Positions 1,315 to 18,884 of a stretch of DNA of 20,528 bases are shown here, piece by piece. Under the pieces are notes generated by a model. It was not told where the DNA came from and did no database searches. It worked only from the letters and a program-made list of their open reading frames with translations. This DNA comes from a virus, in IMG/VR virus record IMGVR_UViG_3300043427_002552, positions 1 through 20,528 of that record; one strand, given 5' to 3'. The translations under genes and the position numbers were made by a program. Position 1 is the first letter of the stretch. Each line of letters starts with the position of its first letter.

Positions 1315-2481
1315 ATGAATATAAAAATACCATACAAAGAATTGGGAAACATATCAAACGCAGCATATGTTGCGGTAATTTTAGATAAAAATAATAATCC
1401 CATATACAGAAGAGATTATAGTCGCGTGTCAGACCCTTGGTTTTTTTCTAAAACAAAAACTAAGCTACCCATAGAAAATAAATTATACGAATTATGCGAC
1501 AGCGTAGTGTTTTATCCGTATTACAATAACACTGGTTGGGGTAATAGAATCGTGATAAAAAAAGAGAAAAACGAGTTGCCAGATAATAGTAATAAAAGTT
1601 TAGAATATATTAAAAACTCAGGCAAACCCGTAGATTTAAATTCGTTGAAAAAATGGATATTTACGGGCTCTAAATTTCCCATAAAAACTAATGTAATCGG
1701 CGATAAAAATTTGATATACTTTACCGCGTTTGGAAACAATGAATATATTGCCTTGTTAAAATTATTGCTAAAAGGATTGAAGAATCAACCGTATAGAAAT
1801 TTTGATATATTGTTTATAACAGATGCATCTACTAAACGAACCATAAATAAAATAGCCGATTTAAAACATTTTAATGTAGATTTTCACGTAATTAAACCTA
1901 TAACTGACCCCGTGCGTGCATCAATGCAAAAATTAAAAATACATGAATATAAAAAAATAAAACAATACAAAAAGATATTGTTTTTAGACATGGATATATT
2001 GGTGCTCGGGAATTTATCCAAAATCTTCGATGAAGAGATTAGGCCGAATAAGTTGTATAGCGGAATACAAAAGTTTGAAATGTCTATGCATAATACTGCG
2101 TTTCATTGTATTAACGAATATACCAGTGAATACTTGGATTTCTTTTCCAAGCGCGGAATATTTCCATTTAACGCCGGTCAATTTATGTTTTTGAACACAC
2201 CGACTATGATAAAGCATTTTAAGCATATAGACAAATTTGCACATAAATGGAAAGGTCCGTTTTTCTTTGAGCAAAGTTTTCTTAATACATATTTTAATGT
2301 ATTATGTATGTCGGATGTATTTAAATTCAAAAATGAATTCGGATTTATATCAATAAACATGAATGATACTGGTTATAAACCAAACGAGGACACTGTGTTT
2401 GTGCATTTTATGGGGAGCATAGGAAAGCCTGATGGGAAATTAAAATTTATTAAAAAATATTATAAAAGTTTAATTGCGTGA
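1315..2481 (+). CDS. GT8-family-like glycosyltransferase with an unassigned N-terminal domain
   Basis: This is a 388-residue protein. From about residue 125 it has the GT-A fold order of GT8 enzymes (glycogenin / LgtC type): a start like NLIYFTAFGNNEYIALLKLL, the metal-binding D225-M-D227 in LFLDMDILVLGN, FNAGQFMFLN with the conserved N-A/S-G, and the C-terminal H364-x2-G367-x3-K371-P372, which matches the HxxGxxKPW signature. These point to a retaining transferase that moves a sugar from a nucleotide donor; the sugar and acceptor are unknown. Residues 1-120 are extra relative to the family and not recognised. The gene is markedly AT-rich (9 G+C in the 60 bases 1921-1980) compared with the terminase gene. 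It overlaps the next gene by 4 bases. Confidence 0.85.
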   Translation: MNIKIPYKELGNISNAAYVAVILDKNNNPIYRRDYSRVSDPWFFSKTKTKLPIENKLYELCDSVVFYPYYNNTGWGNRIVIKKEKNELPDNSNKSLEYIKNSGKPVDLNSLKKWIFTGSKFPIKTNVIGDKNLIYFTAFGNNEYIALLKLLLKGLKNQPYRNFDILFITDASTKRTINKIADLKHFNVDFHVIKPITDPVRASMQKLKIHEYKKIKQYKKILFLDMDILVLGNLSKIFDEEIRPNKLYSGIQKFEMSMHNTAFHCINEYTSEYLDFFSKRGIFPFNAGQFMFLNTPTMIKHFKHIDKFAHKWKGPFFFEQSFLNTYFNVLCMSDVFKFKNEFGFISINMNDTGYKPNEDTVFVHFMGSIGKPDGKLKFIKKYYKSLIA

Positions 2482-3242
2482 AATTTACCATAATTACTTC
2501 GCTATACGGCACATTACCTGTAGTCAAGGAGTGCATCGATAGTTGGCTTCCTTTGCCGCCGAATTGGAATTTGATTGTATATAACTCGGCGGTGTCCTCC
2601 ATCGATGGTACTACAGACTATATTCGTCAAAAGCAAAAAGAGCATAATTTTTTGTTGATAGAAGACGGAAAGACGAGGTCACATACTTCGGCTATAAAAA
2701 CAATAATACCAAGCATTGATGGAGATTGGGTATTACATCTGGATTCAGACGCCAAGTTATTAAATAAGTTTTTTTTCTTGTGGGCAGAAGCTACCGCAAA
2801 AAGCAAAAAATATAAAGTTTATGGCAAAGTAGATAAAAGAATATCGGCAAGAATTGCTATCCGAGAACGGTATATTCACAATAATACAGTGAATGAGATG
2901 TATTTGCCACGCTGTCATCAATGGTTAATGATGTTTGAGAAAGAATACTTCATTCAAAAAAATATAAGTTTTGACGACATAATAATGACGGCAAAAATAA
3001 CATCTCATGGTAAAAAGTTAGCATCACAGGATGGAACAAAAAATTACGACCACGGTGATGAAATATTCATATTTGGAGACACAAGCTGGCAATTGTTTTG
3101 GGAATCTATTGGAGACGATTTGTTTTGTAGTTTTCCAGACGAGGCATATAATTGCTGGAAACATCTCAATAATCAATCATGTAAGTGGGATAGAGTAAAC
3201 AGAGAACTTATATTAAGTGGAAGTTTTCATAGAGTTTCTTGA
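2478..3242 (+). CDS. GT2-like (GT-A fold) glycosyltransferase
   Basis: This is a 254-residue protein starting at a GTG whose last bases overlap the upstream TGA (GTGA junction), indicating translational coupling to the GT8-like gene. The N-terminus FTIITSLYGTLPVVKECIDSW resembles the first strand of GT2 enzymes, and DGDWVLHLDSDAKLL holds a DxD metal/nucleotide-binding motif (D89-S-D91). The rest shows no membrane segment, so it is probably a soluble cytoplasmic transferase. Length is normal for a single GT-A domain. Acceptor and donor cannot be read from the sequence. A 60-base AT-rich gap follows, so this gene may end the transcript that begins with the tail fibre. Confidence 0.75.
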   Translation: MKFTIITSLYGTLPVVKECIDSWLPLPPNWNLIVYNSAVSSIDGTTDYIRQKQKEHNFLLIEDGKTRSHTSAIKTIIPSIDGDWVLHLDSDAKLLNKFFFLWAEATAKSKKYKVYGKVDKRISARIAIRERYIHNNTVNEMYLPRCHQWLMMFEKEYFIQKNISFDDIIMTAKITSHGKKLASQDGTKNYDHGDEIFIFGDTSWQLFWESIGDDLFCSFPDEAYNCWKHLNNQSCKWDRVNRELILSGSFHRVS

Positions 3243-3302: not shown

Positions 3303-6197
3303 ATGGACAAATTCACACAACAGATCATAGAGCAGTTATATAACGAAATCGTAAATGCCAATCAGGTATATGCTATATATCCTGGTCGCTTCCATCCAGC
3401 AGGACCACATCATTACAAGGCATATAAGTATCTTGCCGATAAGTTTGGGGTACAAAATACATTTGTTGTTACATCAGACAAGGTTGAATTGCCAGATAGT
3501 CCATTAAGTTTTGCTGAAAAAAAAGCAGTATGGATAAAATACGGTGTTCCTGCCGATAAAATAATACAGGTTAAAAACCCGTATGTTGCTACAGAAGTAT
3601 TGGATATGCTTCCCGAAAATTCTGCGGTTGTGTTTGGATTTGGCAAGAAAGATTCTGAAAGATTTAGTGTAGGCGGTGTCAAAAAGGACGGTTCTCCATC
3701 ATATCTTCAGTTCTATGAACAGAACAAAAATGATCTACAAGACCTTACTAAGCACGGCTATCTTATAATTATTCCTCATTTTTCTTTAAAAGTTGATGGT
3801 AAGGAATTAAGCGGCACAGAAATACGCAATATGATTGCCGCTAATCCAAACAAAGAAACCTTCGATAAGATATTCGGGTGGTATGATCCAAAGATAGCAC
3901 AACTACTGTCTGATAAATTTAAAGAAGCGTCAAGTTATGTGCCGCCAGAAAAGCCAGTCAAGAAAAAGCTAAAAGAAGGTGGCAATATGTTTGATGTTGA
4001 TGCTTCAATGGTCAAACGTGAAAATCTTGATTCAACCATCCAAAAAGTTCTAAAAGATAATGGACTTGGTAAAGTACAATACTCAAAAATCGGAAATTTT
4101 AGCAAGCCATTGTTGGGGGACATTGATATTGCCATTGATACCAAAGATATGTTGAAGTTTTTAAAACTTCCGCCAACTGCCGACAAAGATACGTTATTTA
4201 AAGAGATAGAAGCAAAGTTTCCAGGCGGAAAAACTGCCAAAGGATTATATCAGTTTCATTTGCTTGGTAAAGCAGACAATCAACCATTTATAAACAAAGA
4301 CGGTAGTGAAGATGATACCAAAGAACCATTTGTTCAGGTTGATGTCATGTTGGGCGTTAGAGGTTGGAGAGAAAAGTTTTATTCAGGTGCACCATCGAGC
4401 CAATATAAGGCAAAGTTCAGAAACTTGTTTATTTCTGAAATATTGTCCAAGATTATAGAAGATGCTGGACCGGGTGGGTTGAAGCAAAAATATCTGCTTT
4501 CTCCAGCAGAAGGATTCTTCTTGCAAAAATTTACTATTGACGCGAAGGGAAAGCGTAAAGAAGTAAGCAGAGAACTAAAGTCCACCGATATGGATTTTGT
4601 AGCAAAGTTCTTGTTTGGAGAAGATAAGACATTTGCAGATATAGATACATTTGAAAAGGTGTATGCTTTATTCAATTCGAAGTCATTCAAGTTCCCACAG
4701 TTTAAGAAAGAAATATTGGATGCATACAAGGAAAATTTGGCAAAGAGCCAAGCAGCGGAACCAGATCTTCTTCATCCAAAGCTGGAAGAAGCTAACAAGC
4801 TGTCTATTCAGCGTTTTTCAGGTGCCAATGAAATGACCGACGCCGAGTTTTTGAATTTTCTACGTCGTATTCAGCCACTGGTAAAACAAGGTAAAATGGA
4901 TTTGAGTGTGTCTGACAACGCATCTGTAACAGAAAAGTTGGACGGATCTCCGTGTAAATGGGGATTAAATGCTGCTGGTCAATTTTTTGTAGAATCGGCA
5001 AACAGCGGCGAAGTAACTATAGCAAATGCCGAAAAGTTGAACAATCCATTCACCGTTCACTTTTATGAAGCTATAAAGTTTTTGAATAGCTATAAGCCAT
5101 TTCAGGCAAAGTTACAAGCAGTCAAAAAGAAGCACGGAGCATTTAAAGTTACTTCCGAAATGTTTCCGGTATTGACTCATAAAGGAGACGATTTGGGAGA
5201 CATTGTATTTGCATCAACTAAATACAACAAATCCAAGCTTGGAAACAAGGGTGCATTTGTATGCTTTAACGCCACCTGCGAAAAGCACGGTGATGAAGGT
5301 TCAGATGAAATTCTTGATATGGTTGAAAACACATCCGATCCCGAATGGAAGATATATAACATCAATAAGCACGGTACTTTAAGCAGAGAAGGACTGGTAT
5401 TTAATATTGCTGGAATACAAAAGCTCGTATCTGACCCAGCCAAACTGGCTCAAGCGGAAACACTACTTAAGTCAAGAAAAGATAGTCCAGAAAAAGATGC
5501 ATTAAAGAAAATCATACGCAACCTCAAAGACCAGATGCAGGATATATTAAACAAATATGCTGAACGCATTAATACATTCTTGAGTTCAGACGCCTCAAGA
5601 AAATATCCAGTAGAAGGTGTTGTATTAAAAATCAATCTACCGGACGAACCTGTATTTATAAAGGGAACATCTGAAATATTCCACAAAATTGCTGAAAAGA
5701 CTTGGGGAACTCGTAAGGCGGTTGGTAATGCCGAAAAAGTGTTTGATGGAGCATTTCTTACCAAGGTTCTTGGTATGACAACCGGTCACGCCGCTACACT
5801 AAACAAGAATATTGCAGCAGCAAAAGCAAAGGTCGGAGATGTTACAGATGAAGTATCTGCTAATAAAGTTGCGTTAGAAGTATATAATACACTAAAGGCT
5901 CAAGGTATTGATGCTTCTCCTACCGCCGTAAAAACTCGTGCCAATGAAGTTATAGCTGCTGCCAAGAAAGAGTTTGCGGATATACAAGCCAAATGGGAAC
6001 AGGTAAAAGCTACAGGCGAAGTTGACCCAGACAGTACGTCTAAAACCGAAAGCCAGATAAACTTCTTACAGCAAAAGCTAAATAATATATCTCAAGCGGT
6101 TCTTACAGACAAGTACAGCGGAGAGGCATATATTGTATATCTTTTAAGACTTTTTATAGATAAAAGATTACGCAGTAATGCAGAAACCGGAGACTAA
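3303..6197 (+). CDS. Multidomain cytidylyltransferase-like / PolX-like / KxDG ligase-like protein
   Basis: This 964-residue protein has three nucleotidyl-transfer modules. Residues ~20-210 resemble the cytidylyltransferase/NMN-adenylyltransferase fold: YPGRFHPAGPHH (residues 26-37, where HxGH is expected) and SGTEIR (170-175, matching the ISTEIR-type motif). Residues ~230-480 resemble a DNA polymerase X nucleotidyltransferase: KIGNFSKPLLGDIDIAI with D273 and D275, a third acid D347 in VQVDVML, and a YSGAPSSQYKAKFRN segment. Residues ~495-800 look like a covalent nucleotidyltransferase ligase: motif I E-K545-L-D-G-S, an E619 motif-III-like SEMFP, and motif IV E771-G-V-V-L-K776. The C-terminal ~170 residues are helical. 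A plausible role is gap-filling and sealing in DNA or RNA repair, with the first domain perhaps handling NAD or another nucleotide cofactor; that is inference. A zinc-ribbon gene follows. Confidence 0.72.
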   Translation: MDKFTQQIIEQLYNEIVNANQVYAIYPGRFHPAGPHHYKAYKYLADKFGVQNTFVVTSDKVELPDSPLSFAEKKAVWIKYGVPADKIIQVKNPYVATEVLDMLPENSAVVFGFGKKDSERFSVGGVKKDGSPSYLQFYEQNKNDLQDLTKHGYLIIIPHFSLKVDGKELSGTEIRNMIAANPNKETFDKIFGWYDPKIAQLLSDKFKEASSYVPPEKPVKKKLKEGGNMFDVDASMVKRENLDSTIQKVLKDNGLGKVQYSKIGNFSKPLLGDIDIAIDTKDMLKFLKLPPTADKDTLFKEIEAKFPGGKTAKGLYQFHLLGKADNQPFINKDGSEDDTKEPFVQVDVMLGVRGWREKFYSGAPSSQYKAKFRNLFISEILSKIIEDAGPGGLKQKYLLSPAEGFFLQKFTIDAKGKRKEVSRELKSTDMDFVAKFLFGEDKTFADIDTFEKVYALFNSKSFKFPQFKKEILDAYKENLAKSQAAEPDLLHPKLEEANKLSIQRFSGANEMTDAEFLNFLRRIQPLVKQGKMDLSVSDNASVTEKLDGSPCKWGLNAAGQFFVESANSGEVTIANAEKLNNPFTVHFYEAIKFLNSYKPFQAKLQAVKKKHGAFKVTSEMFPVLTHKGDDLGDIVFASTKYNKSKLGNKGAFVCFNATCEKHGDEGSDEILDMVENTSDPEWKIYNINKHGTLSREGLVFNIAGIQKLVSDPAKLAQAETLLKSRKDSPEKDALKKIIRNLKDQMQDILNKYAERINTFLSSDASRKYPVEGVVLKINLPDEPVFIKGTSEIFHKIAEKTWGTRKAVGNAEKVFDGAFLTKVLGMTTGHAATLNKNIAAAKAKVGDVTDEVSANKVALEVYNTLKAQGIDASPTAVKTRANEVIAAAKKEFADIQAKWEQVKATGEVDPDSTSKTESQINFLQQKLNNISQAVLTDKYSGEAYIVYLLRLFIDKRLRSNAETGD
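3973..3989 (+). promoter_or_regulatory. Possible internal ribosome-binding site and in-frame ATG
   Basis: AGAAGGTGG lies 4 bases before an in-frame ATG at 3987 (Met229). That ATG falls on the boundary between the cytidylyltransferase-like and PolX-like domains. Starting here would give a 736-residue PolX-ligase protein. The site matches a Shine-Dalgarno sequence better than anything before the main start at 3303. It could equally be a chance result of the Lys-Glu-Gly-Gly linker codons. Confidence 0.3.
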
Positions 6198-6229: not shown

Positions 6230-6871
6230 ATGAAGAGAGCACAAGGCAAAAGTAATATTGATATCATTAAAGGTTATGTGGCGGGCGAACGTCCGTTCCT
6301 ACAAGTAGGATATACAGGAGACGCAGACAAGTATATCATACGTAAAGAAGGTGAAACTTGGAGCGATGCGAGCGGTAAGCAGTGGATACAAACAGCAAGT
6401 GGCCCACAAGCAGTTACTCGCATTATGGACATTGTGCGCGAAGAGATGAATGATAAATGCTCTTGTTGCAACAGAGAAGTACGATGGGGCACAAAGCAAG
6501 ACCGCAAGATGTATAATCGCACAAAAAAGTGCCTTGATTGTGTTGCCAAGGAAGAAACGGAACTGAGAATCAAAGGTCAATTCAAGCTGTATGAAACTAA
6601 GAAGTTGATAGAAAATGAACTATCATATTTGTTGGACATAAAACAAAAGCTACGCGAAAGTAAGGACTATTTGGAAAGTGACGCATCAAAAACACTTACT
6701 TGGGCAAATCAAACAGGTATGGTAGAAGAATGGAGCAACGAAGCAAGAGGCGAACTAAAAAAGAATATACAAAAAGACTGGGTTACTTGTTTGAAGAAAA
6801 TAAAAGCCGCAGAAAAAGAGCTAAAGAAAGTAAACACAGAAATTGATAAAGTACTAAATAAAAAAGATTGA
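6230..6871 (+). CDS. Zinc-ribbon protein with coiled-coil C-terminus, function unknown
   Basis: This is a 213-residue protein of no family I recognise. The N-terminal 70 residues are a compact domain (RPFLQVGYTGDADKYIIRK). A four-cysteine zinc-binding pattern follows: C77-x2-C80 (with C79 between) and C101-x2-C104. Residues ~105-213 are strongly charged and helical, rich in Lys, Glu and Leu, and likely a coiled coil. The zinc ribbon suggests nucleic-acid or protein binding. A possible Shine-Dalgarno AAAGG sits 9 bases before the ATG. It lies between the multidomain repair-like protein and the sugar gene block; the spacing is compatible with co-transcription with the former, but a partnership is only a guess. 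Confidence 0.7.
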   Translation: MKRAQGKSNIDIIKGYVAGERPFLQVGYTGDADKYIIRKEGETWSDASGKQWIQTASGPQAVTRIMDIVREEMNDKCSCCNREVRWGTKQDRKMYNRTKKCLDCVAKEETELRIKGQFKLYETKKLIENELSYLLDIKQKLRESKDYLESDASKTLTWANQTGMVEEWSNEARGELKKNIQKDWVTCLKKIKAAEKELKKVNTEIDKVLNKKD

Positions 6872-6901: not shown

Positions 6902-9487
6902 ATGAAGATTTTATATATTGCTCCGCATCTATCAACTGGCGGTTGTCCGCAATACTTGCTTAAGAAGATACAAGTATTGGTAAAAGAGCACGAAGTATAT
7001 TGCGTGGAATATTCTAATCATGGCGGATTTACCGTACAAAGAAATCAAATCAAAGAAATACTAAAGGATAGATTCTTTGAGTTGGGCGAGAACAAGATGC
7101 AAGTAATGGATATTATAAATAAAATAAATCCAGAAGTTGTACATCTTGAAGAAATGCCGGAATATTTTATGGATGGTAATCTTGCCATTGAATTGTATTC
7201 AAAGGATAGAAAATACAAACTGATAGAAACTTCTCACGATAGCAGTTTTAATCCACAGAGTAAAACAATGTTTCCCGATAAGATATTGTTTGTAAGTAAA
7301 TATCAAATGGAAACTCTTAAATCTTTGGATGTACCTATGGATGTATGCGAGTATCCAATAGTAATAAACCCAAGAAAGCCGCGTGAAGAAGCACTAAAGG
7401 TGCTTGGATTAGATCCGAACAAGAAACACGTTATAAACGTTGGGTTATTTACGCCAAGAAAAAATCAGGCAGAAATAATAGAATATGCCAAGCAACTTAT
7501 TAACTATCCTATTCAGTTTCATTTTATAGGAAATCAAGCAGACAATTTCAAGTTTTATTGGGAACCTTTGCGGAAAGATTTTCCGCCAAATTGTACGTGG
7601 TGGGATGAACGAAAAGATGTACATAACTTTTATCAGGCAGCAGATCTATTTCTATTTACTTCTCGCGGCACAAATAACGACAAAGAAACCAGCCCACTTG
7701 TAATACGTGAAGCAATATCATATAACATACCATCGTTGATATACAACTTACCCGTGTATCTTGGTATGTATGACAAATATGAAAATATCGAATATTTGGA
7801 TTTTGACTCAAACAAAAACAATATAATTAAAATACTGAAAAAATTAAATATGCAAATTGATGATGCGAAACTATTTAGAGAGCAATTTTATTCAAAAGAA
7901 GATGTAAAATTTAATGTTGCATATGATAATACTCAAAATAAAATTTTATTTTCAACAAATACGTTGGTAGAGGATTTGCTTGTTTCTATAAAAGAATTAG
8001 ACTCTCGTGCCGTTGTATGGTCTGCTCATTATGATTCCATGCCAGCAAATTCTGAATTTTGGATTATACCTACCCCAAAAGATTTTATAGATTTTGAAAA
8101 AGATCCTTATATAGGAGGTCTTCTTGTCGAGTTTTATAGCAAAGAAAAATTAATAGATAGTAAATCTATAAGAATAAAGCCTGCAATACCAAATAAACAT
8201 CGGTCAACATTGAAAAATAATAAAGAGCCGATGTATATGAATTATACAGAATTTTTTGTGGATAGAATATATGATGAGTTTGTTAAAAACAAAAAATTTG
8301 ATACTGTTGTGGACGTTGGGGCAAATATAGGTCTATGGACCGAGTACATATTACACTCGGCTAAATGTAAAACAGTTTATGCGATTGAACCTAACAAATC
8401 TGCATTAGAAGTTTTGGAAAAATCATTTGGAGATAATGTAACAGTAGTTAAAAAAGCACTATCCGACGTTGATGGGCATATTGAATTTTTCGTGGATAGT
8501 GAGAATTCGACAGTATCTTCTATCGCAAATGTAAATAAAAATGATAAAGGATATGCAGTTGAATCAATAAAGTTCAAGACATTTATCAATCAATATAGTA
8601 TAAAAAAGATAGATTTAATGAAAGTGGATATTGAATCGGGGGAATATCCTCTATTTTCTTCGTTGGATGATTCTGATATTGGCATCATAGATAATATTTT
8701 GATGGAATATCATACGCTAGGTGGGAGGACATATGAAAAAGATGCGATGCAAATAATAAACAAGTTGAAGTCGCACGGATTTACGGTTTCTATTAAAAAT
8801 ATGCATCCCGCTGGCGGATTTATATATGCTACAAAAAACGCTAATGTAGTGGACAAAAGAAATGATGCAATGATTTCATTTTTGAATATAAATAAATGTC
8901 CAGACAAAAGAGATATCGCCGCGATTGTGAATAAATTATTTCCTGATGGAACTGGTGTAGAAATCGGTGTGTTGCGAGGAGATTATTCAAAAATTATATT
9001 AGAGCGTTGGAAACACGGTCAAATGTATCTGATAGACACTTGGCGACATTTGAGTGAATATGTTGATATGAATGGACAAGATGATAAATATCATTACGAT
9101 TGTATTGTAAAAACTTGTGAAAATATAAAGCCTTGGCAGAATAGAGCACACATGATTCGAATGGATAGTGCATTGGCTGCAAATTTATTTCCAGACGAGT
9201 TTTTTGACTTTGTTTATATTGACGCGGACCATTCATATGATGGAGTCGTGCGAGACTTGAAAGCATGGTGGCCAAAAGTAAAAAGGGGCGGGCTATTTTG
9301 CGGAGATGACTATATTCCACAAGATGGAGATATATGGCTTACAATTGAAGGACAACCGCCAAAGTATGCAGGAAAGTTTGGTGTAAGAAAAGCGGTAAAC
9401 GAGTTCACAGCCAAAAACAATTTAAAATTATATGAAACCACAAACGAGCCTTATTGGAAACAGTGGTATACATTTAAACCTTTTTAA
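6902..9487 (+). CDS. Fusion: GT-B glycosyltransferase, FkbM methyltransferase and a second class I methyltransferase
   Basis: This is an 861-residue three-module protein. Residues 1-~325 resemble a GT4-type GT-B transferase: start ILYIAPHLSTGGCPQYLL, donor-side INVGLFTPRKNQ, and E262-x7-E270 in KETSPLVIREAIS. Residues ~440-660 match FkbM-type methyltransferases: SAM-binding VDVGANIG (470-477), the ribose-binding acid E496 in IEPN, and KVDIESGEYPLF (D576, E578). Residues ~665-861 are another SAM-dependent methyltransferase with GVEIGVLRG (E687), YIDADHSYDGVVRDL, WWPKVKRGG and CGDDY. FkbM enzymes usually O-methylate sugars or small hydroxylated substrates, so the protein could transfer a sugar and then cap it by methylation. 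Base composition is uneven along the gene, with the centre more AT-rich, consistent with assembly by domain shuffling. No Shine-Dalgarno close to the ATG. The next gene begins 5 bases after the stop. Confidence 0.85.
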   Translation: MKILYIAPHLSTGGCPQYLLKKIQVLVKEHEVYCVEYSNHGGFTVQRNQIKEILKDRFFELGENKMQVMDIINKINPEVVHLEEMPEYFMDGNLAIELYSKDRKYKLIETSHDSSFNPQSKTMFPDKILFVSKYQMETLKSLDVPMDVCEYPIVINPRKPREEALKVLGLDPNKKHVINVGLFTPRKNQAEIIEYAKQLINYPIQFHFIGNQADNFKFYWEPLRKDFPPNCTWWDERKDVHNFYQAADLFLFTSRGTNNDKETSPLVIREAISYNIPSLIYNLPVYLGMYDKYENIEYLDFDSNKNNIIKILKKLNMQIDDAKLFREQFYSKEDVKFNVAYDNTQNKILFSTNTLVEDLLVSIKELDSRAVVWSAHYDSMPANSEFWIIPTPKDFIDFEKDPYIGGLLVEFYSKEKLIDSKSIRIKPAIPNKHRSTLKNNKEPMYMNYTEFFVDRIYDEFVKNKKFDTVVDVGANIGLWTEYILHSAKCKTVYAIEPNKSALEVLEKSFGDNVTVVKKALSDVDGHIEFFVDSENSTVSSIANVNKNDKGYAVESIKFKTFINQYSIKKIDLMKVDIESGEYPLFSSLDDSDIGIIDNILMEYHTLGGRTYEKDAMQIINKLKSHGFTVSIKNMHPAGGFIYATKNANVVDKRNDAMISFLNINKCPDKRDIAAIVNKLFPDGTGVEIGVLRGDYSKIILERWKHGQMYLIDTWRHLSEYVDMNGQDDKYHYDCIVKTCENIKPWQNRAHMIRMDSALAANLFPDEFFDFVYIDADHSYDGVVRDLKAWWPKVKRGGLFCGDDYIPQDGDIWLTIEGQPPKYAGKFGVRKAVNEFTAKNNLKLYETTNEPYWKQWYTFKPF

Positions 9488-9492
9488 ATATC

Positions 9493-10311
9493 ATGGTCAT
9501 CTTTCTATACAGTGATAAAAACTGCGAGTATCAGGCAATATCGTGCATTAAATCCTTAACTCACAAAATAACTGACGATGTTGTCGTTTTGTATTACACT
9601 ATAGGATTTGATAGTGCGTTTGAATTCAAGAATTTGAGAAAAATAAGAATTGAACCAAAAGCATATTTTCCAACTTTTCATTATTATAAATCCGAGTTGT
9701 CGTTGTTGACAATGCAGCTATATCCTAACGATTATTATTTCTTTACGGATACAGATGTGTTGTTTTCTCGCAACTTCAATTTCGCCGATCATAGATATAA
9801 CACACCATATCCTATGGCAAGTTTTGGTCCGCACGAATTTCCATTTATTTGGGAAGAAGTTAATGGTACTCGTATAATATACGACGAAAGCAAAACAATG
9901 AAGTACTTTGGAGTAACAGAAAGAAGCATGAGATACTGCTGGTCTTGTTTTTACACATTCAATCCAGATTGTAAGGACTTTTTTGAAGAGTATGTATCTA
10001 TGTGTCAAAATCAGTATTTGATGCAAAGACGAAAGCACTTCTTTCCATATGCGGACGAGACTGCGTTCAATGTTTGCTTGTGGAAAAGAAATGCAACAAA
10101 AAATTTAGGGTTCTCTTTTGTAAATACCCATTTATTGGATACCGTCAAGTTGGTTGAAGAAAGAAGAGCAAAGAATGCACACATAGAAGGTAATGTGGAT
10201 GCTTTTGGACAAAATTGGCAATACGTGGAAAATCCTGATAATGTATTGCTGTATCATGGGTTTAAAAGTCCGCACGATATTGATCCAACACTGGAATATT
10301 TAATAAAATAA
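9493..10311 (+). CDS. GT-A-type glycosyltransferase
   Basis: This is a 272-residue soluble protein. The N-terminus VIFLYSDKNCEYQAISCIKSL is the first strand and helix of a GT-A fold. YYFFTDTDVLFSRNF contains D86-T-D88, the expected DxD. Further family-like points are CWSCFYTFNP, YADETAFNVCLW (a D-E pair typical of the catalytic region) and a late LLYHGFKSP, which may do the job of the C-terminal His motif of GT8-like enzymes. I cannot place it in one CAZy family; GT8-related or an unclassified phage family is most likely. It sits 5 bases after the preceding fusion gene and 25 before the next, within the sugar block. Confidence 0.7.
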   Translation: MVIFLYSDKNCEYQAISCIKSLTHKITDDVVVLYYTIGFDSAFEFKNLRKIRIEPKAYFPTFHYYKSELSLLTMQLYPNDYYFFTDTDVLFSRNFNFADHRYNTPYPMASFGPHEFPFIWEEVNGTRIIYDESKTMKYFGVTERSMRYCWSCFYTFNPDCKDFFEEYVSMCQNQYLMQRRKHFFPYADETAFNVCLWKRNATKNLGFSFVNTHLLDTVKLVEERRAKNAHIEGNVDAFGQNWQYVENPDNVLLYHGFKSPHDIDPTLEYLIK

Positions 10312-10336
10312 AATTAGGTATTTTGAAACGACGCAT

Positions 10337-11116
10337 ATGATTTATATCTGGAAAGATGAATATCCTGTGTTTTTGGAGTTGGCAAATCTTATATCAAGCG
10401 AATTGGATATGCCTAACGAAATCACAAATGATTTGAGCAAAGAAGGAACGTGGATAATATTTTTTGAATCTTTTATAAATCATCGGCATATATTTGAAAA
10501 GAGAAAATATATAATGGTTCAAACCGAAAATATACTTGAATCGGTGCGCCTTGATTCGCCTAACCTTAGACAAGAATATCAAAATTTTTTACGCAATGCG
10601 TATGCGGTGTGGGATTATACAAAAAATTTTAGACTAGGTTATTCTAAATATTATCAAATTCAATACGAACAGTCTAAAGATATGGATGTATTTTTTTATG
10701 GAAGTATAAACCCACGAAGAAAACATATCTTGGACCAAATACCAAACTTATCGACAGTCTCTGCTACTTCAGATATTAAGGTTGATTTTTTTCCTGCATT
10801 ATGGAATTATGTTCGAAGAAGCAAAATAGTCTTGTGCATAAATTACTACGAAAACTCAAACACGGACGTTATACGCCTTGCCCCGCTTTTGACAAATCGT
10901 ACATTTTTTATAGCAGAAAAAACTATCGACCCCTCTCACAATAACCGTACAGAATATGTAGTATCAGATTATAATAATATTCCAGCACTCTGTAAATACT
11001 ATCTAGAAAATCCAAAAGAAAGACTAAAATATATAGAAAGTGGATATAACTATATAAAAAATAATCCAATATTGTTGCCGGATATTTATTCAGAGCGAAA
11101 TATCAATTACGTATAA
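10337..11116 (+). CDS. Putative GT-B-like glycosyltransferase (divergent)
   Basis: This is a 259-residue protein recognised only weakly. The order of elements recalls CgeB-like or other single-chain GT-B glycosyltransferases that have lost much of the N-terminal domain: KYIMVQTENIL, then AVWDYTKNF, a second-domain start DVFFYGSINPRRKHIL, and a conserved-looking ALWNYVRRSKIVLCINYYE followed by DVIRLAPLLTNRTFFIAEK. The last section (ALCKYYLENPKERLKYIESGY) resembles the C-terminal helix of such enzymes. No membrane segment. The next gene begins 5 bases after the stop. Its position among clear glycosyltransferases supports the call, but a non-catalytic role is possible. Confidence 0.55.
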   Translation: MIYIWKDEYPVFLELANLISSELDMPNEITNDLSKEGTWIIFFESFINHRHIFEKRKYIMVQTENILESVRLDSPNLRQEYQNFLRNAYAVWDYTKNFRLGYSKYYQIQYEQSKDMDVFFYGSINPRRKHILDQIPNLSTVSATSDIKVDFFPALWNYVRRSKIVLCINYYENSNTDVIRLAPLLTNRTFFIAEKTIDPSHNNRTEYVVSDYNNIPALCKYYLENPKERLKYIESGYNYIKNNPILLPDIYSERNINYV

Positions 11117-11121
11117 AGGTT

Positions 11122-13239
11122 ATGAAAATCATAAACATCAATCCCGGTCTATTACCCATTCCTCCAAATGGCTGGGGAGCAGTTGAAAAAATCATATGGG
11201 ACTACCATCAAGAAATGCTTAATATTGGTCTTCGCAGCGAAATCAGATATACAGACGAAGTGCAGTACGATGATAGTTGTGTGGTACATGTACACGTAGC
11301 AAATTTAGCAAACTTGCTACACGAACGTGGCATACCTTATATTTTTACTATTCACGATCATCACGCATATTTGTACGGCAAAGATTCCCAGCTATTCAAA
11401 GAAAATCTAAAAGCGATTGAGAACAGCGTATTTTCACTTTCTCCTTGCAAATATCTTGTGCCATACTTTGGCAGCAAAAAACTTAGATACTTCAGTCACG
11501 CTGTAAATACAGATATTTTTACATTCAATAATCGCCAGAGACACAAAAACTTGAAGTTGCTTTGTGTAGCGAACAACGGATATGCATATGACCAGAGCAT
11601 AGATAGAAAAGGATTCAAGATTGCAATACAGGCAGCAAAGACGCTCGGCTTACCAATTACGATTGCTGGACCAAGAAACAATGACAATTTCTTCAAGACG
11701 CTTGAGCCAGAACTAAACGGTTATACTGGTCTTACTAAGTTATACGATCTTGATGAAAAATGGCTAACTCATTTGTACAATGAAAATGATGCGTTTCTTC
11801 ACTTTTCGGAACTTGAAGCCGGTCATCCTAACCTTACATTACTTGAGGCTATGGCGAGTGGATTGCCAGTCATAGGTACATTCGAAGAAGATACATACAA
11901 CGGTATGGCAGTATGCAAACGAGATTTGGACGAGGCAATTGCTGCAATAAAGAACGTTGACGAAAACTATGATAAATTTAGAGCAGATGCACTCGCGAAC
12001 GCAAAATCAAATTCATACAAAAACAGAGTTCATGAATTAGTTGGGTTGTATAGTGAATATAGAGAACGTATTTTTGGAAATAAACTCATCGAGTGCTACT
12101 CAAACTGTGAAAAAGTAGTCAAGGAAGCAAAAAATAACATTTTGATCAATTTTCCACAAGGCCCAAAGGTAGAAATACTTGGACCAATAAGCAGAAAACA
12201 TAAGATAAAGTTTATTGATACAGACAAAAATCAGATAGTATATGAAACAATCATCGGAAATAATATGTGGGCTACAAGCAGCATAAAATATTTCTGTAAA
12301 TGGAAGATAGAAGTATACGAAATGGTTGGAGAAAACTGGGAGAGGCTGATACACACTCATTTATATAACGCAGAGGGTAAAGACGTAAAAGTTATACTTG
12401 ATACAGAAAGTGTGGGAGATCTTATTGCGTTTATTGGGTCGGTTGAAGAGTTTAGAAAACAACATAAATGTAAAATGCATTGTGTTGTATTTTCTAAGCC
12501 TTTGCGCGAGTTATTTAAAAAGTCGTATTCAAATATCAACTTCTTGGATAAAAACCCAAGCGATGATGCATATTATGCAACATATAACATAGGATATTTT
12601 GAGGAATGGAAAGACCGACTAATTACGAACCCGAAAAGATTATCTCTTCCGCACATAGCATCACAAATACTTGGATTTGGAAACAAGGAGTTTAAACCAA
12701 TACTACAGTATGATAAGCCTTCTCCACCAAACAAAAAATATGTGTGTATATTTACACAGAGTACTGCTCAATCAAAATATTGGAATAATGAAGACGGATG
12801 GAAAACTGTAATAAATTATTTGAACAAAAAAGGATATGAAGTATGGTGCATAGACAGATATAGTTCTTTTGGAACTAAAACAAAAATGAACTATATCCCG
12901 CCCGGCGCAATCGATAAGACAGGCGATTATAGTCTTGAAATAAGAATGCAGCAAATACACAACGCCGAGTTCTGCATCGGATTGAGTTCTGGATTAAGTT
13001 GGCTTACTTGGGGAGTAAATAAGCCCGTCATACTTATTAGTGGATTTACAGAAGAATTCAATGAATTTGAAACGCCATATAGAGTAATCAACAAAAATGT
13101 ATGCAACGGCTGTTGGAACGATGTTAATTGTAAATTTGATAAAGGCGATTGGTTGTGGTGCCCAAGAAACAAAGATTTTGAATGTACCAAGAAGATATAT
13201 CCACAAAATGTTATAGATGTTATAAATAAAATAATATGA
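11122..13239 (+). CDS. Fusion of a GT4 glycosyltransferase and a TibC/AAH-type O-heptosyltransferase
   Basis: This is a 705-residue protein. Residues 1-~320 are a GT4-type GT-B transferase: NPGLLPIPPNGWGAVEKIIW at the start and a donor motif with E232 and E242 in EAGHPNLTLLEAMASGLPV. Residues ~345-705 match the autotransporter O-heptosyltransferase family (TibC, AAH): QSKYWNNEDGW, YEVWCIDRY, CIGLSSGLSWLTWGVNKPV, SGFTEEFNEFETPYRVIN, and a C-terminal cysteine cluster C661-x2-C664-x15-C680-x7-C688 (C670 lies between). From memory, TibC binds iron through a C-x2-C-x15-C-x19-C cluster; the first three spacings agree. Known members transfer heptose from ADP-heptose to Ser of repeat-containing adhesins and are single-domain. 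The donor here is not proven to be heptose. The stop overlaps the next ATG by 4 bases. Confidence 0.86.
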   Translation: MKIININPGLLPIPPNGWGAVEKIIWDYHQEMLNIGLRSEIRYTDEVQYDDSCVVHVHVANLANLLHERGIPYIFTIHDHHAYLYGKDSQLFKENLKAIENSVFSLSPCKYLVPYFGSKKLRYFSHAVNTDIFTFNNRQRHKNLKLLCVANNGYAYDQSIDRKGFKIAIQAAKTLGLPITIAGPRNNDNFFKTLEPELNGYTGLTKLYDLDEKWLTHLYNENDAFLHFSELEAGHPNLTLLEAMASGLPVIGTFEEDTYNGMAVCKRDLDEAIAAIKNVDENYDKFRADALANAKSNSYKNRVHELVGLYSEYRERIFGNKLIECYSNCEKVVKEAKNNILINFPQGPKVEILGPISRKHKIKFIDTDKNQIVYETIIGNNMWATSSIKYFCKWKIEVYEMVGENWERLIHTHLYNAEGKDVKVILDTESVGDLIAFIGSVEEFRKQHKCKMHCVVFSKPLRELFKKSYSNINFLDKNPSDDAYYATYNIGYFEEWKDRLITNPKRLSLPHIASQILGFGNKEFKPILQYDKPSPPNKKYVCIFTQSTAQSKYWNNEDGWKTVINYLNKKGYEVWCIDRYSSFGTKTKMNYIPPGAIDKTGDYSLEIRMQQIHNAEFCIGLSSGLSWLTWGVNKPVILISGFTEEFNEFETPYRVINKNVCNGCWNDVNCKFDKGDWLWCPRNKDFECTKKIYPQNVIDVINKII

Positions 13240-14369
13240 AAAATATGATACAACTGTTCAAAGTTTACATGAGTCAAAATGCCAAAATTGAGGTTGGAAA
13301 AGTATTAGACAGTGGTTATATCGGTCAAGGTCCAAAGGTAGAAGAGTTTGAATGTGCGTTGAGGTCGTTTTTAAATAACGACAGAGTTCTTACTCTAAAT
13401 GCCGGAACATCCGGATTGCACCTTGCTCTTCATATGCTCAAAGCGAACGGTAGCATCAAAAATGATGACGAAGTCTTGGCTACTGCTCTTACGTGTACGG
13501 CGTCAAATTGGCCAATATTAGCTAACAATCTACGTATAAAATGGGTAGATATAGATCCAAAAAATTTAAATATGGATTTGGATGATTTGGAAAGAAAGAT
13601 TACACATAAAACAAAGGCAATAATTGTTGTACATTGGGGAGGATATCCAGTAGATTTGGACAGATTAAAAGCTATACAAGAAAAAGCATATAATATTTAT
13701 GGATTTAGACCGGCAATAATAGAAGACGGAGCACATGCGTTTGGTACAGAATATAAAGGAAAAAAATTAGGAAACCACGGTAATATTGTAATGTATAGTT
13801 TTCAGGCTATAAAACATATAACTTCAGTAGATGGTGGGTTATTGGTTCTACCCAACCAAGAATTATACCGCAGAGGAAAATTACTAAGATGGTATGGTAT
13901 AGACAGAGACGGAAATCGAAAAGACTTTAGATGCGAAGCCGACATTGAAGAGTGGGGATTTAAGTTTCATATGAATGATGTATGTGCTACCATTGGTCTA
14001 GAAAACTTGAGATTTGCGGATAGCATTATAGGAAAGCATAGAAATAACGCAAAATTTTATGACAATCAATTGGTAGATACTTCTGGTCTTACTCTTCTAG
14101 AAAGGAATAAAGATTGTAATTCGGCGTTTTGGATATACAGTATGCTGGTTGAAAACAGAGACGATTTTTATCGTTATATGAAAGAATGCGGGATTGTTGT
14201 ATCGCAAGTACACGAAAGAAATGATAAGCATACCTGTGTGAAAGAATATCGCTCCGCATTACCAACTTTGGATAAAATAGTACCAAAATTGGTGTCTATT
14301 CCGGTTGGATGGTGGGTGACTGAAGATGACCGTCAATATATCGTCGATTGTATCAAGAAGGGTTGGTAA
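13236..14369 (+). CDS. DegT/DnrJ/EryC1/StrS-family sugar aminotransferase
   Basis: This is a 377-residue PLP enzyme of the family that aminates nucleotide-linked keto-sugars. Family motifs appear in order: SGYIGQGPKVEEFE near the N-terminus, LNAGTSGLHLAL for the phosphate-binding region, the acid-rich IIEDGAHAFGTEYKGKKLG, and SFQAIKHITSVDGG with the Schiff-base Lys at K193. Length is normal for the family. The ATG at 13236 overlaps the upstream TGA (ATGA); an alternative Met lies 3 codons in (13245). With the following acetyltransferase it could make an N-acylated amino-sugar donor, but no dehydratase or epimerase is in the window, so the keto-sugar precursor must come from the host or from elsewhere in the phage. 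Confidence 0.9.
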   Translation: MKNMIQLFKVYMSQNAKIEVGKVLDSGYIGQGPKVEEFECALRSFLNNDRVLTLNAGTSGLHLALHMLKANGSIKNDDEVLATALTCTASNWPILANNLRIKWVDIDPKNLNMDLDDLERKITHKTKAIIVVHWGGYPVDLDRLKAIQEKAYNIYGFRPAIIEDGAHAFGTEYKGKKLGNHGNIVMYSFQAIKHITSVDGGLLVLPNQELYRRGKLLRWYGIDRDGNRKDFRCEADIEEWGFKFHMNDVCATIGLENLRFADSIIGKHRNNAKFYDNQLVDTSGLTLLERNKDCNSAFWIYSMLVENRDDFYRYMKECGIVVSQVHERNDKHTCVKEYRSALPTLDKIVPKLVSIPVGWWVTEDDRQYIVDCIKKGW

Positions 14370-15263: not shown

Positions 15264-16913
15264 ATGGCAGCAACGCAAAATCTAAAAGATGTTATAAAGT
15301 TGGAATACGCCAAGTGTCTCAAAGACCCTGTGTATTTCATGAAGAAATATGTAAAGATACAACATCCTACACGCGGCACATTGCCATTTCTTACATATCC
15401 TTTTCAGGATGAAGCATTGGAAGATTTCGTAAAACACGACCAGAATATCATATTGAAGAGTCGCCAAATGGGTATTACAACTCTTGTATCTGGTTATGCG
15501 ATTTGGCTCATGACATTTCATACAGACAAGCAGATTTTGTGCTTGAGCATTACACAAGAAACATCCAAGGCGATTGTTACAAAAGTTAGATTTGCCAATG
15601 ATAATCTGCCAAGTTGGCTAAAAGTGCCTGCTGTAGAAGACAATAGATTGTCATTGAAACTAAGAAACGGCTCTGAAATCAAGGCGGCGAGCAGTGCGGG
15701 CACATCTGGTCGTTCAAGTGCGTTGTCATTGCTGGTGGTTGACGAAGCGGCGTTCATTGACAATATTGAAGAAATATGGCTGTCTGCTCAATACACACTA
15801 TCTACCGGTGGTAAGGCAATCATACTATCTACACCAAACGGCGTAGGCAACTGGTTCCATAAGATGTGGACAGAATCTGAAGCAGGTCAGAACAACATGA
15901 ACCGCATCAGTTTACCTTGGCATCTACATCCAGAACGAGACCAAAAATGGAGAGATGAGCAAACAAAACTGTCTGGTGAGAGAGGTGCGGCTCAAGAATG
16001 TGATTGTGAATTTAGCACATCCGGCAATACCGTCATAGATATTCCAACGCTACAATGGTATGAAAAAACACATGTATGTGAGCCATTGGAAAAACGCGGG
16101 ATAGACAAAGGTTATTGGATATTCAAGTATCCAGAAGCAGGTAAATCATATATGGTGTCTGCCGACGTTGCTCGTGGCGATGCCAGCGACTATAGTGCCG
16201 CTCAAATACTTGATATAGAAACAATGGAACAGGTTGCTGAATATAAAGGTAAGTTGCCGACCAAGGAATATGCACGAGCATTAATGACAATGGCAACAGA
16301 ATATAATAACGCATTGCTTGTTGTAGAAAATGCCAATGTTGGTTGGGCAGTAATACAAGAAGTGCTTGATGCCAACTATCCAAATCTTTTCTATAGTTCC
16401 GCTGACCTACAATATGTTGATGTAGAAAATCAAATGACCAACAAGTTGAATAGAGAAGAACGTAAAATGACACCCGGCTTTACTACATCACACAAATCTC
16501 GCCCGCTGCTAATATCAAAATTAGAAAGTTATTTCAGAAACAAAGAAGTTATTATACACAGCAAGCGGCTTATAGAAGAACTACAAGTTTTTATATGGAA
16601 AAGCGGAGCAGTATCTGCCAAAGCAGAAGCAATGGATGGATATAATGACGACCTTGTTATGGCAATGGGTATATCTTTATGGATAAGAGATGTAGCATTG
16701 CGGCTTAGAAAAGAAGCAGATAGTGTTACACGCACAATAATAGACAGAATAGGAGTAGCGTCGCCACAACAAATGATAAACAATATGAAGACGCTAAATG
16801 GTGATAAAGGAGTAAATCCATTCGGCGTATATAACAACCCGTGGCAAATGCACGTTGGTGGGCCTGGTATGCACGGTGCCAAGCCAGAAGACCTAACTTG
16901 GCTGCTACGATAA
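15264..16913 (+). CDS. Terminase large subunit (T4 gp17-like)
   Basis: This 549-residue DNA-packaging motor protein has an ATPase half and a nuclease half. The ATPase part shows a terminase-type Walker A K65-S-R-Q-M-G-I-T-T73, Walker B LLVVDEAAF with D160-E161, and the coupling motif S189-T-P-N-G193. The RNase-H-like nuclease part has its three acidic positions: D301 in VSADVARGDASDYSA, E355 in LLVVENANVGW, and D462/D463 in DGYNDDLVMAMG. Length and order are typical of T4-like terminases. It drives DNA through the portal, encoded next, and cuts concatemers at headful. It begins 3 bases after the previous stop, with no clear Shine-Dalgarno. Base composition is richer in G+C than that of the glycosyltransferase genes. 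Confidence 0.97.
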   Translation: MAATQNLKDVIKLEYAKCLKDPVYFMKKYVKIQHPTRGTLPFLTYPFQDEALEDFVKHDQNIILKSRQMGITTLVSGYAIWLMTFHTDKQILCLSITQETSKAIVTKVRFANDNLPSWLKVPAVEDNRLSLKLRNGSEIKAASSAGTSGRSSALSLLVVDEAAFIDNIEEIWLSAQYTLSTGGKAIILSTPNGVGNWFHKMWTESEAGQNNMNRISLPWHLHPERDQKWRDEQTKLSGERGAAQECDCEFSTSGNTVIDIPTLQWYEKTHVCEPLEKRGIDKGYWIFKYPEAGKSYMVSADVARGDASDYSAAQILDIETMEQVAEYKGKLPTKEYARALMTMATEYNNALLVVENANVGWAVIQEVLDANYPNLFYSSADLQYVDVENQMTNKLNREERKMTPGFTTSHKSRPLLISKLESYFRNKEVIIHSKRLIEELQVFIWKSGAVSAKAEAMDGYNDDLVMAMGISLWIRDVALRLRKEADSVTRTIIDRIGVASPQQMINNMKTLNGDKGVNPFGVYNNPWQMHVGGPGMHGAKPEDLTWLLR

Positions 16914-16976: not shown

Positions 16977-18884
16977 ATGGCAGAAACAAAAGACTTATTT
17001 AGCAGACTAAAGAAAATGTTTTCTACGGACGTTATCGTTCGTAATGTGGGCGGCAAAAAACTAAAGATTGTTGACACAGATGAAATACAATATGCTACAG
17101 ACAGAAATAGCCTAAGAGACCGTTTCAATCGTCTACGCAGCAGCACATTCAACTTACATAATCGTGACATGAGTATGGCTTATCAAGCAAGCCGACTTGA
17201 GTTGTTTAGAGATTATGACGTTATGGATATGGATCCTATTATCGCAAGTGCGTTGGACATATACAGCGATGAATGTCTTGTGCCAAGCGAGTTTGGTAGA
17301 GTATTGACCATACGCAGCAAAAATGAAAACGTAAAAAAGATTTTGGAAAATCTTTTCTATGACATCTTGAATGTTGAGTTCAATATGTGGAGTTGGACAC
17401 GCAATATGTGTAAGTATGGTGACTTTTTCCTACGTATGGAGATCTCTCCAGAATATGGTGTATATCTTGTTCATCCAATTAGCCCATATGAAATCACTCG
17501 TATAGAAGGTAGTGATCCACAAAATATCAACTATGTAAAGTATCAGCACGATGGTATGGGCGGTGGTATGGAATATGAAAACTTTGAAATCGCGCATTTT
17601 CGTTTATTGAGCGACAGCAACTTTTTGCCATATGGTAAATCAATGATTGAACCAGCACGCCGTGTATGGAAGCAACTAAGTTTGATGGAAGACGCAATGC
17701 TTATTCATCGCATCATGCGTGCTCCTGAAAAGCGTATATTCAAGGTTGATGTAGGAAATATTCCTCCTGCCGATATTGATGCGGCCATGCAGAAGATTAT
17801 TAGTCAAGTAAAGAAGGTTCCATATATTGACGAACGCACAGGTGATTATAACCTACGCTTCAATTTGAATAATATGGTTGAAGATTTTTATCTACCAGTT
17901 CGTGGCAGCGATAGTGGCACAAACATAGATACATTGCCCGGAATGGATTTCACAGGCATCGATGACTTGGAATATATTCGTAATAAGATGATGGCGGCAC
18001 TCAAAATTCCAAAGGCGTTTTTAGGCTACGAAGAAGGATTGTCTGGTAAAGCAACTCTTGCCGCCGAAGATGTTAGATTTAGCAGAACAATCGGTAGAAT
18101 ACAGCGTATCATCGTGTCTGAACTAACAAAGATTGCTATCGTTCATTTGTATGTACAGGGTTATCAGGACGCTACACTTGTTGATTTTGAACTTGAACTA
18201 AGCAATCCAAGCACCATCTTTGAACAAGAAAAGTTGGAAATCTGGCAAAATAAGATCAGTCTTGCGTCAGATATGATGGAAAGCACTATGTTCAGCAAGA
18301 ACTGGATATATAATCAAGTATTCAACTTGTCCGAAGATGAAGTTGAACAAGTTCAGTTGGATGTTATCAAAGACAAAAAGCAGGCGTGGCGTATGGAACA
18401 GATTACGTCCGAAGGCAATGATCCTGCCACAAGCAATCAAAAGATGGGCGATGCAGGACCAGAAGACCTTGGTGGTGGGGGCGGTGGTGACCTTGGTGGC
18501 GGAGGTGATACTGGTGGAGGTGAAGAAGCGGGCGGTGGCGGGGGTGGTGACGAAGGTGGATTGCCGCCGCTTGAAGAAGAAACACGCAAAGACCGCGAAC
18601 GTGGTAACAGAGACCAAACAGGAAACAAGGAAAAATATACATCATCACATACCAAGAACTTTGGTGAAGACCCCCTTGGCAACAAGGAAAATAAAGAAAA
18701 GTCAAAAACAGAGCGTTCAACCCGCCATATATATAGAGGCGGTGCATTATCAATGGACGAAGATCTAAAGAGTATAAAAACTGCCCTAAAAGCAAGATAT
18801 AATAATAAGCACAAACAGGTTATAACTGAAAAAAAATCTATATTAGATGAATCAAACCTGATAGAAGAAGACAAACAGCAGTAA
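16977..18884 (+). CDS. Portal vertex protein (T4 gp20-like)
   Basis: This is the 635-residue dodecameric head portal through which DNA enters and to which the neck attaches. Family-typical stretches include DMDPIIASALDIYSDEC, YGDFFLRMEI, PYGKSMIEPARRVWKQLSLM, RAPEKRIFKVDVGNIPP, MVEDFYLPVRGSDSGTNID and MMAALKIPKAFLGYEEG, then an ATLAAEDVRFSRTI core. After the conserved core (about residue 485) comes a low-complexity, glycine-rich linker (residues ~498-528) followed by a charged tail ending in EEDKQQ. That extension is unusual for gp20 and may be disordered or processed. Terminase lies directly upstream; the tail-sheath and tail-tube genes that separate the two in T4 are absent here. Confidence 0.96.
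   Translation: MAETKDLFSRLKKMFSTDVIVRNVGGKKLKIVDTDEIQYATDRNSLRDRFNRLRSSTFNLHNRDMSMAYQASRLELFRDYDVMDMDPIIASALDIYSDECLVPSEFGRVLTIRSKNENVKKILENLFYDILNVEFNMWSWTRNMCKYGDFFLRMEISPEYGVYLVHPISPYEITRIEGSDPQNINYVKYQHDGMGGGMEYENFEIAHFRLLSDSNFLPYGKSMIEPARRVWKQLSLMEDAMLIHRIMRAPEKRIFKVDVGNIPPADIDAAMQKIISQVKKVPYIDERTGDYNLRFNLNNMVEDFYLPVRGSDSGTNIDTLPGMDFTGIDDLEYIRNKMMAALKIPKAFLGYEEGLSGKATLAAEDVRFSRTIGRIQRIIVSELTKIAIVHLYVQGYQDATLVDFELELSNPSTIFEQEKLEIWQNKISLASDMMESTMFSKNWIYNQVFNLSEDEVEQVQLDVIKDKKQAWRMEQITSEGNDPATSNQKMGDAGPEDLGGGGGGDLGGGGDTGGGEEAGGGGGGDEGGLPPLEEETRKDRERGNRDQTGNKEKYTSSHTKNFGEDPLGNKENKEKSKTERSTRHIYRGGALSMDEDLKSIKTALKARYNNKHKQVITEKKSILDESNLIEEDKQQ

Follow-up and report, generated by a model that had tools for sequence, protein, structure and literature searches.

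In bacteriophage T4 the prohead protease gp21 cleaves after L/I-X-E, and the internal head proteins carry a 10-residue capsid-targeting leader that is removed at such a site (PMC9026906). Here we describe an open reading frame of 964 codons, positions 3303-6197 on the plus strand of the viral record IMGVR_UViG_3300043427_002552 (positions 1 to 20,528; "the window" denotes this whole stretch of 20,528 nucleotides), which encodes an NMNAT-like domain, a Pol-beta-fold nucleotidyltransferase (NTase) and a ligase-like domain, and in which both joints between these domains carry motifs of the gp21 type. The explanation that we prefer, at a probability of roughly 0.6, is that the product would be a head-packaged precursor polyprotein, divided by proteolysis into three enzymes that leave the head along with the DNA, and not one trifunctional enzyme. 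The sites and the packaging context change the meaning of the three-module fusion.

With the internal head proteins of T4 (IPI-III and Alt) the window protein shares the L/I-X-E rule and a short N-terminal leader, its relatives share a T4-type head cluster with Peptidase_S77, and ejection with the DNA is predicted here as well; however, where each T4 protein loses a propeptide, the window protein comprises three enzymes with internal sites, and the cargo is unrelated. Processing of head proteins is known from T4, phiKZ and SPN3US (PMC9026906, PMC10052503). Multi-domain injected "polyvalent" proteins are also known, and the consulted sections of their description present them as multi-enzyme chains of late-gene context, whose delivery into the host alongside the DNA has been proposed, with Pol-beta NTase and ParB among the listed parts, as here, whereas the NMNAT/ligase combination is not among the parts listed in these sections (PMC5512222). 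The window protein, too, is a late-gene product that combines several enzymatic domains, but differs in the predicted processing by a prohead protease at inter-domain sites, and Pfam gave no match to the polyvalent hub domains (MPTase, ArdC-N, MuF) in the window protein and scanned relatives, one relative matching ParB_N only. The pairing of a Pol-beta NTase with an RNA-ligase-type enzyme is known from RlaP (PF10127) and the Rnl ligases of jumbo phages (PMC7824862), although the window-type domain gave no match to the RlaP model and both families occur separately in one contig. The cyanophage "cytitidyltransferases" and DUF6267 (PF19782 / PHROG 455) provide NMNAT-like and KWDG ligase-like modules that are adjacent or fused, and a cytidylyltransferase is present in S-CREM2 virions; their sequences are, however, distant from the window protein, and in P-HM1 they are separate genes. 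The bifunctional NMN adenylyltransferases NadM and NadR share the HIGH-superfamily fold and SxTxxR with the window domain, but they are fused to Nudix or kinase domains instead of NTase and ligase, and the HxGH of the window domain is degenerate. In the open-licence literature we found neither a precursor that combines NMNAT, Pol-beta and ligase modules nor the linkage of enzymes of this kind through prohead-protease sites described.

The proposed precursor and its candidate cleavage sites

The reading frame is intact (ATG start, 964 codons, stop at 6197, no internal stops) and its predicted product consists of a leader, the NMNAT-like, Pol-beta NTase and ligase-like domains and a helical C-terminus (3303..6197, plus strand). 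That one chain holds three nucleotidyl-transfer modules, as the initial annotation had proposed, is very probably correct: the residues it named (SGTEIR, D273, D275, D347, K545, E771 and K776) all lie at the positions given, and relatives with identical module order and 58-87% identity over the full length are encoded in five independent IMG/VR contigs (L001, L002, L003, L005 and L104; such identifiers denote loci throughout). For none of the modules did the window protein return a useful match in sequence searches of Pfam, PHROGs and PDB, and weak matches to Cep57, DUF1366 and phrog_4623 were discarded as coiled-coil or composition-like. An AlphaFold2 model of the chain has a mean predicted local distance difference test score (pLDDT) of 80 and a predicted template modelling score of 0.39.

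The motif [LI]xE[GAS] occurs exactly twice in the 964 residues, at E225 and E496, and both occurrences are at joints. The first predicted prohead-protease site, L-K-E↓G (residues 223-226; 3969..3980, plus strand; the arrow marks the predicted cut), separates the NMNAT-like and Pol-beta domains, and the second, L-E-E↓A (residues 494-497; 4782..4793, plus strand), separates the Pol-beta and ligase-like domains. The chance of both motifs falling into the inter-domain gaps of ~30 and ~17 residues is ~(47/964)^2 = 0.002. The model is disordered (pLDDT<50) at residues 215-226 and 496-502, and also at residues 12-18, behind a candidate leader of the capsid-targeting type, MDKFTQQIIE (residues 1-10; 3303..3332, plus strand), which ends in I-I-E.

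Most modules in the relatives are likewise preceded by L/I-x-E↓G/A/S. Ahead of Pol-beta and ligase domains the motif mostly takes the form L/I-x-E↓GG; several NMNAT domains have LxE↓A in front, as in MKLTE followed by AVKPRVVAILPGRF. Pol-beta proteins that stand alone open with short leaders, MLRFKEYIKE↓GG and MKFKQLIKE↓GG among them. Among joints with E at P1, P3 is L or I in 37/37 pre-ligase joints of the NMNAT-ligase clade and in 30/31 pre-Pol-beta joints, and P2 is free in both. At the pre-ligase joint of the window clade both the site and its residues drift (LEE↓A, LGE↓A, IGE↓A, INE↓G, LTE↓D), but L/I-x-E is kept. The joint pattern of the window protein and its relatives is that of the gp21 rule, L/I-X-E, and it is found before unrelated folds. 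In a comparison with shuffled sequences, made on 32 representatives at 50% non-redundancy, linkers contained 56 motifs against 19.1 expected (2.9x) and cores 11 against 17.2 (0.64x; Fisher test, 6e-10), and no linker enrichment was seen for the control patterns, that is, the reversed motif and the motif with its E replaced by D, K or N.

Head context and virion evidence

Peptidase_S77 is encoded in the contigs of L001, L104, L080, L027, L129 and L118. In the first four of these the scaffold carries the motif near its N-terminus (ALEE↓AF), in three of the four the protease has an N-terminal motif of its own (LTE↓A, LSE↓A and IQE↓S), and in all three contigs that cover the major capsid gene its product carries one near residue 61-65. 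The virion proteome of S-CREM2 lists the cytidylyltransferase gp154 (3 unique peptides) and its neighbour gp156 (6 peptides) (PMC10665884). Both are distant relatives of the window modules; the N-terminus of gp154, MKNFSSFLTE↓A, is of the same leader type, and gp156 carries GGNANYNYTPYSDIDLHLVVD and has an NTP_transf_2 match just above the cut-off, indicative of a Pol-beta NTase.

Judged from sequence, the window protein is probably head cargo processed by a gp21-type protease, and we infer the following course of events. The precursor would become part of the prohead core. There the prohead protease of T4 type (gp21/Peptidase_S77) would cut it after L-K-E225 and L-E-E496, and perhaps after I-I-E10, and so set free its NMNAT-like, Pol-beta-fold nucleotidyltransferase and ligase parts as three enzymes, which would travel in the head and reach the host together with the genome. 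Inside the host, NTase and ligase would most probably mend and seal broken ends of nucleic acid, RNA being a likelier substrate than DNA, while the NMNAT-like enzyme would work separately, on nicotinamide adenine dinucleotide (NAD) or another nucleotide conjugate. This functional assignment, comprising end repair, RNA over DNA and an independent NMNAT, is the weakest part of the reading.

If the scheme is true, head-maturation proteolysis also serves as polyprotein processing of injected enzymes, and the cleavage motif is a sequence-level tag for ejected effectors among uncharacterised proteins of T4-like phages. Repair of nucleic acid damaged by the host or by restriction could then start in the first moments of infection, ahead of phage gene expression, and NAD-type metabolism would likewise be possible at that stage. 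Roles would furthermore be suggested for DUF6267/PHROG 455, which is widespread in T4-like cyanophages.

The three modules

The NMNAT/cytidylyltransferase-like domain of the HIGH superfamily (residues 21-207; 3363..3923, plus strand) contains PGRFHPAGPHH, GKKD and SGTEIR (residues 170-175). A Foldseek search with the AlphaFold model matched the NadM NMN adenylyltransferase 2r5w (E 2.3e-4, prob 1.00), so that the fold first assigned to this region stands, though with a degenerate HxGH. Pfam PF01467 gives no match to the window protein but does match relatives, for instance L012 with E 1.5e-8. PGRF is kept in 67 members of the family, GxKD in nearly all, and SGTxxR or a close form in 66/67. At the HxGH position the window protein has GPHH, its first histidine being lost, and 65/67 members have GxHH or AxHH, HRGH being found in the other 2/67. 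This widespread loss would fit a domain that has given up nucleotidyltransfer and serves as ligand sensor or scaffold, but such a role is unlikely, since the second histidine, GxKD and SGTxxR are almost invariant over deep divergence, which argues that catalysis, or at least nucleotide binding, has been retained. PPAT, moreover, functions with TxGH.

The Pol-beta-fold nucleotidyltransferase (residues 226-486; 3978..4760, plus strand) has the pattern hG[GSTN]...DxD...D, with G264, D273, D275 and D347 in the string G...GDIDIA...QVDVM. Its model matched the catalytic domain of DNA pol beta (3k75, E 7.4e-5, prob 1.00), and 24 Pol-beta relatives, many of them within other proteins and with identities as low as ~21%, all keep the glycine and the three aspartates; loss of catalytic residues across homologues, which would have spoken against the original assignments, was thus seen neither here nor in the 7 relatives of the ligase. 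The catalytic fold bears out part of the label "PolX-like", which is nevertheless too narrow, as PolX-specific domains (8-kDa lyase and HhH) were not demonstrated, no search aimed at them having been made. Profiles built from the Pol-beta and ligase alignments had no match in the PDB, and among 84,980 bacterial and archaeal genomes, scanned with one degenerate peptide pattern only, no relative of the Pol-beta domain turned up. Identity with RlaP was rejected, the PF10127 model giving no match to the window-type domain at E<=1 in contigs carrying that domain. Contig G010, to which L118 belongs, encodes a genuine RlaP NTase and, elsewhere, a window-type Pol-beta NTase (128925-129755 and 69275-70096).

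The ligase-superfamily-like domain (residues 501-804; 4803..5714, plus strand) shows KLDG, SEMF, GAFVCF, EGVVLK and FIKG in the order expected of ligases, with K545 (motif I), E619 (III), E771 (IV) and K787 (V). K545, D547, G548, E619, E771, G772, K776 and K787 are invariant across 7 ligase relatives, and the equivalent catalytic set is invariant in 19 proteins of the NMNAT-ligase clade. The ligase-like set originally proposed therefore stands, except that K787, in FIKG, is a better candidate than K776 for the lysine of motif V. A profile of the window domain matches L129 (E 7e-6) and the ligases of L113-115 (E 2e-4 to 2e-3; hhalign prob 81%, E 1.1e-5), and L114 spans nearly the full Pfam RNA_ligase model with E 0.0016, below the Pfam cut-off. 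The model of L057, a related NMNAT-ligase (pLDDT 86), matches the RNA ligases T4 Rnl2 1s68 (prob 0.98), 5cou (prob 0.96) and 2hvq (0.94). Direct profile comparison did not unite the window domain with the L057 clade (prob only 11%) or with DUF6267 (prob 4%). Motifs, weak profile links and the RNA-ligase folds found for L057 together suggest a ligase.

DUF6267 is found in many T4-like cyanophages. That of L179 (3980-5182; PHM1_161) has ligase-like KWDG...EG[YF]V...KLV motifs and adjoins cytidylyltransferases; given the failure of the profile comparison, DUF6267 is suggested to be a ligase by these motifs only. Behind the window ligase the AlphaFold model shows a confident all-helical C-terminal region (residues 805-964; 5715..6194, plus strand), which is also retained behind the ligase in L160 and L104.

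The theme of nucleic-acid end repair, already present in the initial annotation, is plausible because some relatives add a P-loop kinase, HAD nucleotidase or ParB domain. That the main task of NTase and ligase is RNA-end repair is a tentative proposal, RNA being favoured over DNA because related ligase domains have an Rnl2-like fold. The enzymes could instead, still as head cargo, act on the phage's own incoming DNA, filling and sealing nicks, gaps and ends, in keeping with the nearest match of the middle domain among solved structures, the catalytic domain of DNA pol beta, and with the ParB-like domain of one relative (L012). We consider this unlikely, since the related ligase domains are nearest to RNA ligases (T4 Rnl2 and the Naegleria nick-sealing RNA ligase) and RNA_ligase gives the only Pfam signals among them. 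Mel-JY01 encodes another annotated RNA ligase, a gene that speaks for neither RNA nor DNA as substrate.

Shuffling of modules and weighing of the alternatives

A combination of NMNAT and ligase without Pol-beta is common, with at least 571 confirmed matches, the ligase motifs of which were checked only in the ~80 retained loci, and variants of it have an added ParB (L012), zeta-toxin/PNK-like P-loop kinase (L094) or PAP2 (L098). The Pol-beta domain is found alone (L105, L118, L140), with a HAD nucleotidase-like domain (L112), behind a ligase (L113-115, L120) and ahead of DUF6267 (L133, L138). In L160 the order is reversed, the ligase being followed by a C-terminal NMNAT-like domain (phrog_395 at residues 754-828). 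PHROG 455 has DUF6267 at positions 19-341 and cytidylyltransferase at 418-678, which in Prochlorococcus phage P-HM1 are separate neighbouring genes. A 1416-residue chain with its 5' end cut (L117, 1-4248) has CCA-enzyme-like and HD regions and, at its C-terminus, a window-type Pol-beta domain behind an LTE↓GG joint.

The three activities are thus repeatedly linked, yet not as one fixed enzyme, and the machine of fixed order that had first been proposed finds no support in modules that recur alone, reversed or as adjacent genes, nor in joints that both carry cleavage-type sites. For environmental T4-like phages we consider it somewhat better than an even bet that a head-carried kit of nucleotidyl-transfer enzymes (NMNAT-like, Pol-beta NTase and RNA-ligase-like) is made as a polyprotein and split by the capsid-maturation protease, with L/I-x-E↓G acting as a plug-in code for adding, reordering and delivering modules.

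Several observations weigh against processing and packaging. The window record ends upstream of gp21 and of the major capsid gene; we infer cleavage and presence in the virion for the window protein and its close relatives, the virion data coming from the distant S-CREM2 proteins, for which possible co-purification is mentioned by the authors (PMC10665884). The site in the leader is the weaker one because its P1' residue is Q. The whole-chain structure prediction, which matched the NMNAT and Pol-beta folds, modelled the ligase region poorly and without a Foldseek match. Sites inside one homologous clade are furthermore not independent, and with 12 proteins at 30% non-redundancy the linker enrichment is 26 against 11.0 (2.4x), with Fisher p 0.03 and undepleted cores. 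The spacer-2 variant [LI]xxE[GAS] shows enrichment as well (2.2x), for which a frequent L or I at P4 is the probable cause. The motif is short, Mel-JY01 having 80 in 40,529 residues (~2 per 1000); [LI]xEGG is found in only 2/147 of its proteins, one of these occurrences being the NMNAT-ligase joint. Finally, the NMNAT-ligase joint has M or C for E in 10/47 distinct sequences, and such joints may remain uncut.

In several relatives this joint reads LLxC|GG or LLLM|GG, without E. A ROS/MUCR and HNH-like insertion lies exactly at the NMNAT-ligase joint of L027 (4998-7700), where the closely related L019 has ITE↓GG.

Against the precursor one may set a single intact enzyme, made during infection, in which Pol-beta fills or tails, the ligase seals and the NMNAT-like domain supplies or senses NAD. 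The constant order in the five relatives would suit it, gap filling by a PolX together with a ligase is an established scheme, and jumbo phages have RNA ligases alongside RlaP Pol-beta NTases (PMC7824862). The occurrence of the modules alone, reordered or in neighbouring genes, and the coincidence of protease-type sites and disorder with exactly both joints, nevertheless make this improbable. That L-x-E-G-G is a structural domain cap or linker preference and no protease site is more doubtful still, for although the motif stands at a nearly constant distance ahead of each core and GG is kept where M or C replaces E, the identical P3/P1 constraint with free P2 ahead of unrelated folds, the unenriched control patterns, the presence of the motif in capsid, scaffold and protease proteins of the same phages and its persistence through the drift at the window-clade pre-ligase joint all speak against this reading.

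Genomic surroundings

The window is a piece of a T4-like phage genome, with the end of a tail-fibre gene encoding an S74 chaperone, glycosyltransferases, a T4-type large terminase (15264..16913, plus strand) and a portal protein (16977..18884, plus strand), the last two providing the head and packaging context. Directly 3' of the precursor gene lies that of a 213-residue zinc-binding-like CxxC...CxxC protein with a coiled C-terminus (6230..6871, plus strand), for which family searches found no informative family. In all clades covered by the analysis the NMNAT-ligase gene is immediately followed by a partner gene of this kind, both CxxC being invariant, and in L080 this partner is directly upstream of the large terminase. 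A cluster of glycosyltransferase, FkbM methyltransferase and aminotransferase genes flanks the precursor gene on both sides (1315-3242 and 6902-14863); it appears to be variable, since in L104 the partner gene almost directly precedes the terminase. The tail-fibre gene that ends in the S74 chaperone domain contains 108-bp tandem repeats (1-302). Beside the portal (19821-20527) are small core-like proteins with N-terminal LIRE(T/L)xEEV helices, and leaders resembling these recur in head-cluster genes of the relatives.

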